From a virus, in the IMG/VR virus record IMGVR_UViG_3300048837_000334, positions 1-48,152 of that record: a stretch of 48,152 nt of DNA; one strand, written 5' to 3'. This document shows, piece after piece, positions 2,517 through 26,963 of this stretch. A program made the position numbers and the translations under genes. Each line of letters begins with the position of its first letter. Position 1 is the first letter of the stretch. Under the pieces are notes generated by a model. It had not been told where the DNA came from. It saw nothing but the letters and a program-made list of their open reading frames with translations, and ran no database searches.

Positions 2517-4484
2517 TTACAGGCCGTAGGCCCGGAACTGACTGTTGATGCCGAACTGCCGGGCCTGCTCCTGCAGGCGCGCGAGGTCGATGCCGGCACC
2601 GACGTCGAACTGGCGCCCGCCCTCGCGCAGTTGCGCGTGCGACAGTTCCATCTGCTGCTGCAGGGCGAGCAGACGGAACGCCAGATCGTCTTTGAATTCC
2701 GTGTTGGCGGTCGCCAGTTGCGTGAGGTCGAGATAGGCCGACAGGTCGATGTCGTACAGGTCGACGAGCTCACCCATCTTCGACGTGACCCAGTCCAGCA
2801 TCAGTTTGTCGCGGCTGATGCCGAGTTCGGCCGCGGCCTGCGCGCTGGCCTCACGGAGCGCCAGCCGGTCAGTCGCCGCCGCCGCCTGGTCGATCTGCAG
2901 CTTGGCCGCGTTGACGACGTTGTTGCTCTGAAGCTGCGCCGCATTGAAGACGTTCTGCTCGTTGGCGAGCGCCGCCTGCAACGCCTGCGCGCTGGCCGTC
3001 TGCTTGTTCGCCTCGCCCGCCTGCGCTTCCGCGAGGCGCCGACGGGAGACCGCATCGCCGTAGGCCGCGCCGATGTTGGCCGCCGCCTGGCGGTCGCCCA
3101 TGTTCGTGCGGGCGGCCTCGATGTCGATCGTGCGGTTGCCGCGCGAGATGGCTTCGTCGCGGTCACGGCGCGCGTTGAGGCGTTCGCTCGCCAGCCACGG
3201 GCTGCTGTCGATGCCCATGCCGTACCCGAGGCCGATCAGGTCTTCGTCGAGCATCTGCGCCTGCTGCGCCTGCTCCTCCCGGCTCGCGCCCTTCAGCATG
3301 TCGACGGTGCGCGCGTCGAGCGATTCCGGGTTGGCCAGCAACTGCTGGATGAGCGCCTGCGTCGCCGCTTCCGTGTCGGCGTCCATGTTCTCGAAGCCGC
3401 CGAACTGGTAGCCCGCCTGCACGGGCGTCGGCGTGTACCCGCCCATCTGGCCGAGCAGTGCCTCGTAGCTGGCCGACGGCAGGTCGTCGGTCGGAATGGC
3501 GCCCGGCGTGTAGCCCGTCGCCTCGGGCGTCCAGTCGGGCAGTGTCGGCGTGGTCGGCCGGGCGCCGGGGTTGATGGACGATGCCCCGCCGACGCCCGCA
3601 CCGGCCGGCAGGCTGAATGCCGCGGGCGCGTAGCCGCCCCCGCCACCCCCGCCGCCACTGTGGCCGCCCTCGGTCAGCCAGCCCCACGACGGGTTCGCCC
3701 CGCCAGCGCCGATGATGGTGTCGATGGTGCGGCCGTCCGGCAAGACGAGCTTGTCGAGGCGATCGGGATGTTCGAGCAGCTTGACCGTGCCGGGGCCGAA
3801 GACGCGGTCGATCTCGGCCATCGCCTGCCGCATGCCGTCGTTGGTCGGCGGGTACTTGTGCAGGATGGACTGCACCGCGCTGTCGCTGTACGGCTGCGTA
3901 CCGCCCCCGCCGGCCGTGGCCTGCGGCGCACCGACGGTGTAGCGGCGGCCGTCCACGACGAGCGTGTCGCCGTCCCACTTCACCTGATGGCCGGCGCCCT
4001 GCAGATCGCTGTAGACCTGTCGCGCGAGCTGGTCCTGCTTCATCGCGCGCTGCTGCGGGTCGGTCGTGCTCCCGAGGTCGGCGACCTGCCGCTGGTACTC
4101 GGACACACGCGCGTAGCCGCGCGCCTCCGGGCTCTGCTGCACGGCCTGCTGCGCGCCCTGCAGCCCGCCCGGGTTGGCCTGATGCGCGGCGAAGTCGTCG
4201 GGGCCGGCCGAGCGCCCGAGGAACTGCTCGTAGGAACTGTTCAGGGCTGCGCTGTCGGCGTCACTCCACCCGCCGACACCAGCCCCGCCCTCCGGGCTCG
4301 TCCCCCGCTGGCCCGTGCGCGGCGTGGCCTGCGACGGGTCGAAGGTCGGCGACGGGTTGATGGTCTTGTCGTAGGTGGCCTGCAGGTCGGCGCCCCACGG
4401 GTCGGCGCCGGTCTGGTAGTTCCCGCCGGTATTCGCGCCCCACGGGTCCTGCTGGTCCTGCTCCCACGGTGACTGCAGCGCCAT
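2517..4484 (-). CDS. Putative internal virion/ejection protein, 655 aa
   Basis: The N-terminal 60 residues are disordered and rich in Gln, Gly, Pro and Trp, with two 'DPWGA' repeats. A segment at about residues 80-120 ('SYEQFLGRSAGPDDFAAH') resembles the DUF4214-type short helical repeat found in large virion and surface proteins. A glycine run (about residues 270-285) forms a hinge. The C-terminal 300 residues are Ala/Gln/Leu-rich and predicted to be one long helical region, as in T7 gp15/gp16-type proteins. Position and composition suggest an ejectosome component; no enzyme motif is visible. Confidence 0.7.
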   Translation of the reverse strand: MALQSPWEQDQQDPWGANTGGNYQTGADPWGADLQATYDKTINPSPTFDPSQATPRTGQRGTSPEGGAGVGGWSDADSAALNSSYEQFLGRSAGPDDFAAHQANPGGLQGAQQAVQQSPEARGYARVSEYQRQVADLGSTTDPQQRAMKQDQLARQVYSDLQGAGHQVKWDGDTLVVDGRRYTVGAPQATAGGGGTQPYSDSAVQSILHKYPPTNDGMRQAMAEIDRVFGPGTVKLLEHPDRLDKLVLPDGRTIDTIIGAGGANPSWGWLTEGGHSGGGGGGGGYAPAAFSLPAGAGVGGASSINPGARPTTPTLPDWTPEATGYTPGAIPTDDLPSASYEALLGQMGGYTPTPVQAGYQFGGFENMDADTEAATQALIQQLLANPESLDARTVDMLKGASREEQAQQAQMLDEDLIGLGYGMGIDSSPWLASERLNARRDRDEAISRGNRTIDIEAARTNMGDRQAAANIGAAYGDAVSRRRLAEAQAGEANKQTASAQALQAALANEQNVFNAAQLQSNNVVNAAKLQIDQAAAATDRLALREASAQAAAELGISRDKLMLDWVTSKMGELVDLYDIDLSAYLDLTQLATANTEFKDDLAFRLLALQQQMELSHAQLREGGRQFDVGAGIDLARLQEQARQFGINSQFRAYGL

Positions 4485-24047: not shown

Positions 24048-24280
24048 GACTGCCGCTCCACGGTGAGGGTCCAGTGCGAGACGACACGGCTCCCGTCCTC
24101 ATACGTCTGCGCCACCGAGAACGTCGTGCCATTGTCGAAGGCGTGAATGCGCATGTTCCCGGCCGCGTCGAGTTCGATACCAGGCGGCGGCTCACCCACA
24201 AAGGCGCACGAGACCGCCTCGCGTCGCCAATCGAAGGTTTGCACCGTCGTGGCCGGCATGTCGAACGGATTGTCGCTCAT
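24044..24280 (-). CDS. Hypothetical protein after terminase, 78 aa
   Basis: ATG 24280 overlaps the terminase stop (ATGA) and was preferred over an upstream GTG. The sequence is a small beta-rich domain ('AGNMRIHAFDNGTTFSVAQT', 'SRVVSHWTLTVE') with no cysteine cluster or membrane span. No family recognised. Confidence 0.55.
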   Translation of the reverse strand: MSDNPFDMPATTVQTFDWRREAVSCAFVGEPPPGIELDAAGNMRIHAFDNGTTFSVAQTYEDGSRVVSHWTLTVERQS

Positions 24281-26679
24281 CCCTTCCCCCACGCCGGAAA
24301 CACCCCGCGGCGCCCCGGCTTCAGTTCGTGCCGTTTCTCGATGCGTTCCGCCTCGGCGCGGCTCAGCGGGTCGAGCGTCGCAAGGTCGGCCTGCAGCGCC
24401 AGCTTGCCGATGTCGAGCGGCTTGCCGACGGGCCGCGACTCGAAGAAGCGGCCGATGCTCTCGTAGCTGTTATGGACCAGCACGCCGTTGGCGAAGAATT
24501 CGTGCGCGTCGTCCACTTCGAGGTCATACACCGCTGCGGTTCCGCTGCGACGAACGGAAATAACACATAGGCTTCCCGCAGAGCCGGGCTCGGTCTCGCT
24601 TCGGCGTGAAGACGTCGCCGCAGACGTCGCAAGGCCGCGGTTGGATGGCCGGTCGTGCGTCTCGTGCGCGCTGATCGGCGGCTCGCCACGCACAGGGCCG
24701 AGAGCAGTAGAGACGAGGATGGGTTGCAGGCCGGGCCATGTACTCTCGGCCGCACTGTACGCACCGATACGCGACCGCAGGTTGCCCCAAGCGGACGCGA
24801 CTCGCAATCGCCATGTTGGCACGGCGTGAGGTGCGCTGCCGCTGGCTCGGGTGAACTGAGTGCATAGCGAGATGACGCGCCGCCGGCACCAGTTCCAGAT
24901 TATCCGGATGATTGTTCGCGGGGTCGCCGTCGCGATGATGGATATGGTGCCCTGCCGGGATGGAGCCGTGCAGGTCCATCCAGACCTGTCGATGCAAGCG
25001 AGGGCGTCCGCGCCGTCCGAAGTACCGCTCCATGCAGTAGTAGCGGACACCCCGCCACTCCTGAATCGTCGCGGAGATGACCGCCGGGGCTTCAGGCATG
25101 CAACATCATACACCATGATGCCCTCGGATAGTTCGTTGAGTCTTACCCATCCGCGATCCACGACCCACACGGGATGTTCGGACGTACCTGTGAGCACACG
25201 GCCGTCGGAGAGCGTCACGTCGTAGACCGGCGCGGCGTCCGCCTGCTTCCACGACGCCCGCACGCTGCGCCAGCCGCGGCGCGTCAACACGACGTCACCC
25301 GCCACCACCTCGCGTATAGCGACCTCACCACGCGCGGTCGTGATCAGCGTGCTCCCTACAAGGCAGTGATTCTCGCTGTCGCCGTCCTCGACTTCCGGGT
25401 CATCCTCATCCCACGGCACGCGCGGCACGGTGCGAATCAGGTGCGGGCACGCCGTCGTGCACGACCAGTGCGGCACGCCGTGCTCGCTCACGCTCAGGGC
25501 CGCCATCCATCGCTGCGGGCGGGACACGCGCGCCGCACGGCCACCGGCGCCTTGCTGCAGAGGGATGTGGAGCGGCTGGCCCAGGCCCTCATCGTACACC
25601 TCGGCGATGCTCTTGCCGATGCCCATTTCGCGGCGGCTGCCGAACATCACCGGCTCGAGCTCGATGTACTGTGGCCGCGCCATGCCGCGCGCCATGAACG
25701 CCTCGATGGTGACGCGCATGCGCTCGGCCTGCTCGACGTCCCGCACTTCCTGCTGATACCACTCGTGGAACGTGCGCATGTGGCCGTTGGGCAGGACTGC
25801 GTGCAGGTAGGCAGCCCACGGCGCCCCATACCCGTAGTCGACCGAGCCATAGATGACGGCCTCCTTCGGCGGAAACCACTGCGCGTCGTCGTACACGTGC
25901 CACGGGATGACCTGGCCCACCGTGCAGCCGATGCGCAGGAGATGCCCGTCCGTCTCGGTGACCGTGTGCGTGGGCTTCCACATCGCGCCGAGGATGTAGC
26001 CAGCGTTGCTCTCGAAGCTGGCCTCGTACTCCTGCAGAAATAGACGCAGCTGCCCGCGCTGCTCGTACTGGCGCCGGATGCCCGTCAGTTCGTCTTGCTT
26101 GTCGCGGTACAGCGGGCAGTCGGCCGTGGTGAACGTCCAGCTCGCCCAATCGGGATACGCCGGGTCCTGGCCCTGCTGATACAGCGTGTAGAAGTGGTCG
26201 TAGCCTTTCGGCGTCCCGAGGATCAGCGCCCAGCCGCCCGTGTCGAGCAGAGACGGCAAGATGATCTCGTCCCACAGGTTCTCTTTGGTGTCGGCGTACT
26301 CGTCAATGACGATGCCGGCGATACCGCGCCCACGCAGGCTGTCGGGATGGTCGGCCCCGTGCAGGGCGATGACGCTGCCATTGAGTAGTTCGATCTCGAG
26401 GCGGCTCTCGTTCGGCGGGCGCCGCAGCCACGAGCGCGGCACCATGTTGACGAGCACCTTCCACGCGATGTCACGGGCCTGCTTCAGTTCCGGCGCCAGA
26501 TACCAGTAGCGCCCAGGCGCCATGGCTGCGCTCAGCAGCAGGCAGATCACCCCGAGGATGGTCTTGCCCCACCGTCGGCCAGCGGCCACGACACGGAATC
26601 GCGCGGGAGACTCGAAGACTTGGCCCTGCTGCGCGTGCAGCTTCAGCAGCCGCTCGGTCGGGACGGTGGGCGCGCTCAC
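24277..26679 (-). CDS. terL: Large terminase subunit, interrupted by an intein (800 aa precursor, 501 aa mature)
   Basis: This is the motor that packages DNA through the portal and cuts it. GTG 26679 overlaps the small-terminase stop (GTGA). Walker A 'GRRWGKT' is at residues 34-40, Walker B 'VIDEY' at 124-128, and the coupling motif 'LGTPKG' near 154-159. A nuclease aspartate lies in 'YGSVDYGYG'. Residues 439-737 are an intein. The joined exteins read '...DSENH' + 'SYESIGRFF', which is the third nuclease motif (normally D-H-x-x-D-A), so the intein sits in the catalytic site and must be removed for activity. The usual second Asp of that motif appears to be Glu here. The frame stays open across the nested HNH gene. 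Confidence 0.9.
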   Translation of the reverse strand: MSAPTVPTERLLKLHAQQGQVFESPARFRVVAAGRRWGKTILGVICLLLSAAMAPGRYWYLAPELKQARDIAWKVLVNMVPRSWLRRPPNESRLEIELLNGSVIALHGADHPDSLRGRGIAGIVIDEYADTKENLWDEIILPSLLDTGGWALILGTPKGYDHFYTLYQQGQDPAYPDWASWTFTTADCPLYRDKQDELTGIRRQYEQRGQLRLFLQEYEASFESNAGYILGAMWKPTHTVTETDGHLLRIGCTVGQVIPWHVYDDAQWFPPKEAVIYGSVDYGYGAPWAAYLHAVLPNGHMRTFHEWYQQEVRDVEQAERMRVTIEAFMARGMARPQYIELEPVMFGSRREMGIGKSIAEVYDEGLGQPLHIPLQQGAGGRAARVSRPQRWMAALSVSEHGVPHWSCTTACPHLIRTVPRVPWDEDDPEVEDGDSENHCLVGSTLITTARGEVAIREVVAGDVVLTRRGWRSVRASWKQADAAPVYDVTLSDGRVLTGTSEHPVWVVDRGWVRLNELSEGIMVYDVACLKPRRSSPRRFRSGGVSATTAWSGTSDGADALACIDRSGWTCTAPSRQGTISIIATATPRTIIRIIWNWCRRRVISLCTQFTRASGSAPHAVPTWRLRVASAWGNLRSRIGAYSAAESTWPGLQPILVSTALGPVRGEPPISAHETHDRPSNRGLATSAATSSRRSETEPGSAGSLCVISVRRSGTAAVYDLEVDDAHEFFANGVLVHNSYESIGRFFESRPVGKPLDIGKLALQADLATLDPLSRAEAERIEKRHELKPGRRGVFPAWGKG
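24469..25365 (-). mobile_element. Intein in large terminase (299 aa)
   Basis: Block A is 'CLVGSTLITTARGEVAI' with Cys at position 1, block B is 'GTSEHPVWV' (the TxxH residues), and the C-terminal blocks are 'VYDLEVDDAHEFFANG' and 'VLVHN' followed by Ser as the +1 residue. These are the residues needed for protein splicing. The N-terminal splicing part is about 88 residues and the C-terminal part about 33. The roughly 178 codons between them are mainly an open but meaningless reading of an HNH gene in another frame, so the spliced intein would carry a non-conserved, Arg/Ser-rich linker. Confidence 0.9.
24524..25099 (-). CDS. HNH homing endonuclease nested out of frame in the terminase intein, 191 aa
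   Basis: An HNH core lies at residues 48-80 ('PAGHHIHHRDGDPANN', 'DNLELVPAARHLAMH'), preceded by 'RLHRQVWMDLHG', as in free-standing phage HNH_3-type enzymes. Two cysteine modules follow ('CVQCGREY...YCSRPC' and 'CDVCGDVF...LCGKPMC'), probable zinc ribbons that recognise DNA. A TGA lies three codons before ATG 25099 in the same frame, so it is not fused to the intein; its frame is shifted by -1. The last 15 codons overlap the real intein C-terminal part ('VISVRRSGTAA'). There is no strong Shine-Dalgarno at the ATG; GAGGG lies about 19 bases upstream, and reinitiation is possible. Confidence 0.85.
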   Translation of the reverse strand: MPEAPAVISATIQEWRGVRYYCMERYFGRRGRPRLHRQVWMDLHGSIPAGHHIHHRDGDPANNHPDNLELVPAARHLAMHSVHPSQRQRTSRRANMAIASRVRLGQPAVAYRCVQCGREYMARPATHPRLYCSRPCAWRAADQRARDARPAIQPRPCDVCGDVFTPKRDRARLCGKPMCYFRSSQRNRSGV

Positions 26680-26963
26680 TTCTCGATGACCACGCGCAGC
26701 ACCTCGAGCCCGCCTTCGACCTGCACGGTCTCCTTCGGCTTCCCGTAGGCGTAGTGCCATAGCATCGTCTCGACGGCTGGGTGCAGCTTGCCGGCGTCGA
26801 GCTTGGCCTGCAGGGCCGCCCGGTAGTCGCGCCCCTCCACGAGTTGGCGTGCGACCTCTCGCACTTCCTGCGTCACCTTGTTCGGCGTGCCCTTCGTGCG
26901 GCCCTGCTGGCCGCCGCGTTTCAGGTTGGCTAGGCTGCGCGGGTTGCTGCCTTTGCGGCTCAT
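26676..26963 (-). CDS. terS: Small terminase subunit, 95 aa
   Basis: The protein is helical and basic. 'GRTKGTPNKVTQEVREVARQ' matches the N-terminal DNA-binding region common in small terminases (a G-x-x-x-G-T/S-x-N-K-x-T pattern) and is followed by a helical oligomerisation region. ATG 26963 has GGAG six bases upstream and overlaps the stop of the PEP-CTERM gene (ATGA). The stop overlaps the large-terminase GTG. Short for the family (often 140-180 residues), but the order and coupling make it the best candidate. Confidence 0.75.
   Translation of the reverse strand: MSRKGSNPRSLANLKRGGQQGRTKGTPNKVTQEVREVARQLVEGRDYRAALQAKLDAGKLHPAVETMLWHYAYGKPKETVQVEGGLEVLRVVIEK

Follow-up and report, generated by a model that had tools for sequence, protein, structure and literature searches.

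The DNA analysed here (the window) is a stretch of 48,152 nucleotides, positions 1 to 48,152 of the IMG/VR virus record IMGVR_UViG_3300048837_000334. It raises the question of whether one segment can serve as the middle of an intein in the large terminase subunit (TerL) and, in another reading frame, as a complete gene for an HNH endonuclease. A preliminary description had proposed that an intein with the appearance of splicing competence and an HNH gene with its own start occupy the same DNA in different frames, and our analysis shows that this was right. Very probably, an independently translated homing endonuclease is stably entangled here with a cis-splicing TerL intein.

All features of the locus lie on the minus strand. 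The TerL gene that contains the intein occupies positions 24277 to 26679 (Terminase_6N; PHROG terminase large subunit, 3.6e-45), with a GTG start at 26679 that was placed from the orthologue in a relative, L029. It comprises an N-extein (25366 to 26679), an intein of 299 residues in the TerL frame (24469 to 25365) and a C-extein that includes the stop codon (24277 to 24468). The intein extends from the C1 codon, whose first base is 25365, to the N299 codon, whose last base is 24469, the flanks being ...DSENH|CLVGST...VLVHN|SYESIG. With C1, TSEH as the block B TxxH motif, and a C-terminal HN followed by S, the insert has the features of a class 1 intein. Moreover, it was matched by Pfam Intein_splicing (3e-11) and by NCBIfam intein_Nterm and intein_Cterm above their own cut-offs, so that the splicing motifs first noticed at both ends are borne out. 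The TerL frame is free of stops throughout the insert.

Within the intein, an open reading frame (ORF) of 191 residues runs from an ATG at 25099 to a stop at 24524 (24524 to 25099), at an offset of +2 (equivalent to -1) relative to TerL. Its product was matched by HNH_3 (E = 7e-14) and by the PHROG HNH profile (1.8e-23), and contains the invariant residues of the HNH motif (H54, H55, D57, N62, N63 and H76) and two zinc modules (C113/C116/C132/C136 and C157/C160/C174/C179). A TGA in the HNH frame (25106 to 25108) lies just upstream, two codons separating it from the ATG. The two zinc modules, the separate frame, the own ATG and the preceding TGA, all pointed out in the preliminary description, were thus confirmed.

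AlphaFold2 models of both products were built from the window and from locus alignments from which annotated records were left out. The N-terminal splicing half, with C1 and TSEH (residues 1-91; 25093 to 25365), and the C-terminal half, which matches intein_Cterm and ends in HN|S (residues 265-299; 24469 to 24573), had predicted local distance difference test (pLDDT) values of about 98 and 97, respectively, and together form a predicted HINT fold. The part of the intein frame that reads through the HNH gene (residues 92-264; 24574 to 25092) was predicted to be a mostly unstructured loop, most of residues 92-262 having a pLDDT of about 48 and no structure, and the HNH protein was predicted to be folded (mean pLDDT 94). 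In a Foldseek comparison, the HINT halves were closest in geometry to the gp41-1 intein (template modelling score 0.88 by target length, 2.2 Å). The point of insertion between the halves is the one at which endonuclease domains are found in inteins (PMC6801210). As in a canonical intein with an endonuclease, the window nuclease sits at the conserved position between the splicing halves; unlike in such an intein, it is encoded in the other frame, at the +2 offset, and is no domain of the intein protein.

The question then becomes whether the open TerL frame across the HNH gene means anything. Relatives were collected from IMG/VR, GTDB species genomes and annotated phages by HNH-based scans that took no account of frame. 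The 115 loci in which intein halves flank an HNH gene were reduced to 98 by removing HNH proteins 80% identical, and to 97 tested loci by dropping L161, which is unrelated and in frame. Expected stops were obtained from synonymous shuffles of the HNH gene that preserve its protein product and its codon usage. For the window alone, about 61% of the shuffles keep the TerL frame open, because its DNA is 67% GC; openness by itself is therefore not significant here, and the relatives were needed for the test. This figure is what speaks for the alternative that the TerL frame is open by accident, owing to high GC content, the HNH gene being the only real coding sequence in mid-insert and TerL being broken or split. 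Across the non-redundant relatives, however, the intein frame is stop-free over the HNH gene in 78 of 97 loci, against 10.6 expected (P 8e-94), which refutes such an accident for the family. The low-GC relatives L138 (32%), L076 (34%) and L131 (34%) likewise have 0 intein-frame stops and 27-31 in the third frame, and the splicing motifs are intact on both sides of the insert. We consider this alternative extremely improbable.

In 77 of the 78 stop-free loci, the window included, the whole forms a single continuous ORF (hereafter nested loci); in the remaining one, L129, the halves lie in different frames. The nested loci with the +2 offset (n = 70) have 0 intein-frame stops versus 158.6 expected, and 1034 versus 1112 in the third frame; those with the +1 offset (n = 7) have 0 versus 80.1, and 89 versus 77 in the third frame. 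A fractured arrangement, in which separate genes for TerL with the N-terminal intein half (IntN), for the HNH protein and for the C-terminal half with the rest of TerL (IntC-TerL) follow one another and the intein frame is interrupted, was found in 20 relatives. The fractured +2 loci (n = 16) served as an internal control and contain 115 intein-frame stops versus 110 expected; the constraint therefore vanishes once TerL is split. Free-standing HNH relatives adjoining terL (in PAE1, FBPa53, SN1, PhiSTP1, BP10 and an Exiguobacterium phage) have 1-12 stops in the equivalent frame. Stop avoidance is also visible in dipeptides: a Met with I, M, N, K or T as the next residue, a combination that forces a stop, occurs at 0 of 93 Met in the +2 nested HNHs, at 12 of 51 in the fractured ones and at 7 of 18 in the free ones. 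The stop counts show that openness of the intein frame across the HNH gene is kept by selection in this family. As for the open TerL frame stressed in the preliminary description, it is real and selected in the relatives; in the GC-rich window it is weaker evidence than had been supposed. The +2 offset probably dominates because keeping that frame open takes the smallest number of codon changes, since only 158.6 stops were expected over 70 loci in that frame versus 1112 in the third.

Which of the two frames carries the amino-acid constraint was examined by counting substitutions in 37 disjoint pairs of nested loci. The codon alignment followed the HNH frame, which favours that frame in distant pairs; close pairs are independent of this help. 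Over the HNH gene, the changes at positions 1/2/3 of the HNH codons numbered 2197/1972/3346 in the +2 class and 181/147/321 in the +1 class, and in the close pair L091/L096 they numbered 3/1/24. The intein-frame identity is far below the HNH identity, for example 0.50 versus 0.82. Changes are thus concentrated at HNH third positions, and the HNH protein is therefore conserved, the intein-frame loop being free except for stops. As judged from these counts, the amino-acid constraint is in the HNH frame and the intein frame merely avoids stops. The full HNH motif is kept in 74 of 77 nested HNHs, and on the intein side C1 is present in 75/77, TxxH in 76/77 and a C-terminal Asn followed by C, S or T in 77/77. 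From the retained motifs and the modelled folds, both products look functional. A side observation concerns the pair L091/L096, which has 28 differing sites in the nested HNH gene (24 at third positions) and only 2 in the adjacent intein N-half, a contrast that possibly reflects recombination.

With two readings in use, the nuclease could be started on its own or be produced by ribosomal frameshifting as an IntN-HNH fusion. The latter would be reachable by -1 frameshifting, given that the usual offset of +2 equals -1, and in 26 of the 77 nested loci the 10 codons preceding the start contain no HNH-frame stop. The other 51, among them the window, do have a stop in this interval, and the existence of the nested +1 class also speaks against frameshifting. 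Additionally, Shine-Dalgarno matches of at least 5 nt precede the HNH start in 26 of 73 nested loci versus 6.6% of background start-like codons (p = 4e-13). Shine-Dalgarno enrichment and upstream stops together favour independent initiation over frameshifting, and we regard a frameshift origin of the nuclease as very improbable.

It may also be asked whether the nested form is only transient, a recent capture heading for an in-frame or a fractured arrangement. In favour of such a passage, the fractured relatives are scattered over the tree of HNH proteins, and free-standing members of this HNH family adjoin terL. The tree is unrooted and weakly supported: in it, a branch with support 74 sets apart the nested +1 group, which stands among fractured loci, and its backbone support is too weak for ordering nested/fractured transitions. 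Against transience, the nested loci dominate the sample and are diverse, with very divergent HNH proteins (many pairs <40% identical), and the avoidance of stops is long-term and reaches down to dipeptides. Moreover, a profile search found no homologue of the window HNH in frame at the same TerL site, the kind of relative that would have spoken against the preliminary description. The other objection foreseen there, a pair of compensating indels, cannot account for 77 continuous loci that include the isolates TJE1 and Highwayman. The suggestion that the locus is a stage towards an in-frame intein endonuclease was not supported: the out-of-frame form is the commonest state sampled, is divergent and is kept open, and the other outcome observed is not in-frame fusion but fracture, giving a split intein and a free HNH. 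A merely transient nested form thus appears very improbable. The only in-frame members met with, L008 (in a DNA polymerase, by eye) and L161 (in another host gene), have distant HNHs, lie outside this TerL family and were set aside.

Our preferred explanation is therefore that the HNH gene is an independent unit in the other frame, overlying the loop between the two splicing halves of a mobile intein. Ribosomes reading TerL would traverse the HNH gene, and a loop of about 170 residues without structure would come to lie where inteins usually have their endonuclease; both HINT halves would then fold in cis, excise the entire insert and restore TerL. Other ribosomes would initiate at the HNH ATG within the TerL message and yield the free nuclease, which would presumably cut intein-less terL alleles and so drive homing. 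Selection keeps the intein frame stop-free over the HNH gene, and where this constraint is lost, the fractured TerL-IntN / HNH / IntC-TerL arrangement may result, if the change proceeds in that direction. Several points weigh against this explanation. Homing is deduced from family membership and anatomy. At the sole empty-site relative, L029, a comparison for co-conversion showed identity without a rise towards the junction. The ribosome-binding site of the window HNH is weak, with a 4-nt match. Finally, most of the seeds used to gather the loci by similarity were nested, so that the ratio of nested to fractured forms is no census.

Parts of this arrangement have been published. In ShiLan, an HNH gene with zinc fingers lies out of frame in an open host gene, and the insert, which has no splicing domains, is mobile and thought to be retained in the protein; its authors also discuss internal initiation (PMC11855218). 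The window resembles ShiLan in that the HNH with its zinc modules is out of frame and the host frame has no stops, and presumably also in the mobility of the insert. It differs in that a complete intein makes up the insert in TerL, in the about 77 non-redundant continuous loci, and in the constraint measured on both frames. Like the I-HmuI-type homing endonucleases, the window protein has an HNH fold: a fold search gave 1u3e (I-HmuI) as the best PDB match, a weak one (E 0.037, prob 0.95), and a PDB sequence search gave no real match. Unlike the case of I-HmuI, which is encoded in a group I intron, no intron was detected at the insert, an Rfam scan for a group I intron ribozyme giving zero matches at E<=1.

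Fractured genes in which a free-standing endonuclease gene lies between split-intein halves were reportedly described by Dassa in 2009 (as cited in PMC6801210), with emphasis on a Vsr-like endonuclease family, and the gp41-1 intein presumably originates from such a fractured, split-intein locus. Likenesses to these systems are the intein halves that flank an independent endonuclease gene, a form taken by the 20 fractured relatives, and the modelling of the window intein onto gp41-1. Unlike fractured genes, the window and the 76 other nested loci have a continuous frame, for which one precursor and splicing in cis would be expected, and the window nuclease is of the HNH/zinc type and not Vsr-like. 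Out-of-frame HNHs in open genes and fractured split-intein loci are thus already known, and their combination in a nested intein appears to be new, as we found no open paper on an intein with an out-of-frame HNH. The preprint bioRxiv 2025.01.02.630785 (Gosselin et al.) on actinobacteriophage inteins with 'non-canonical architecture', limited by its title to actinophages, may overlap: PMC11855218 cites it for endonucleases in overlapping frames of phage inteins.

More broadly, though with somewhat less than even confidence, we propose that a large and old intein family at the TerL nuclease site, present in bacterial and archaeal viruses and prophages, normally has the out-of-frame nested architecture, and that naturally split inteins arise from it repeatedly when read-through is lost. 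If this is true, entangled inteins would be the intermediate so far missing between free-standing homing endonucleases and split inteins like gp41-1. The free-standing, nested and fractured forms make up a graded series that bears on the origin of split inteins. The loci also show that an endonuclease can reside in an intein without belonging to the intein protein. They are a natural case, observed many times, in which about 190 codons on a single strand carry two complete protein readings, with constraints separable by frame: amino acids in one, mere stop avoidance in the other. It is important to mention that gene callers miss such nucleases. Three annotated phage records with a nested locus were examined (Tetrasphaera phage TJE1, Rhodobacteraceae phage MD07 and Acinetobacter phage Highwayman); all three give TerL as a single ORF, an oversized protein, and leave the HNH unannotated.

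The host gene and insertion site are largely consistent among the relatives. Most of the N-exteins tested (n = 84) match terminase families (Terminase_6N 53 and Terminase_3 43, the counts overlapping), and the TerL junction D-H|C and HN|C-D-A-x-R-Y is found in nearly all relatives. The corresponding empty site is seen in the L029 TerL, which is 77% identical and has ...DDH|AFES... without an intein; a Megablast of the terL region against phages gave no match. The contigs that carry nested copies are assigned to Bacillota, Pseudomonadota, Actinomycetota, Bacteroidota, Chlamydiota, Nitrospirota, Myxococcota, Elusimicrobiota, candidate phyla and Thermoplasmatota; these host-assigned contigs are probably phage sequence, and binning can be wrong. 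In two loci, L110 and L139, nested inteins lie at another TerL-like junction (LEDQM|C; N|C-RIHHVG), which suggests either another site of insertion or an additional intein close by.

Fractured TerL genes were also seen in the phage records L033 (Vibrio phage 1.245.O), L036 (Lactobacillus phage CL2) and L175 (Brochothrix phage BL3), which are candidates for natural trans-splicing split inteins; the HNH of BL3 has only 40 codons beyond its start. Just upstream of TerL in the window, a probable small terminase gene (26676 to 26963, minus strand), recognized in the ORF list by its position only, overlaps the TerL start. Outside terminases, a related HNH ORF (3428-4147) lies out of frame within an open N6_N4 DNA methylase ORF at L014:2959-4881, in which no intein was found and which resembles the ShiLan element. 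At L013:3190-4803, an HNH ORF (3746-4336) lies out of frame within an open DUF5131 ORF, also with no intein, which suggests that out-of-frame HNH insertion extends to a further gene family.
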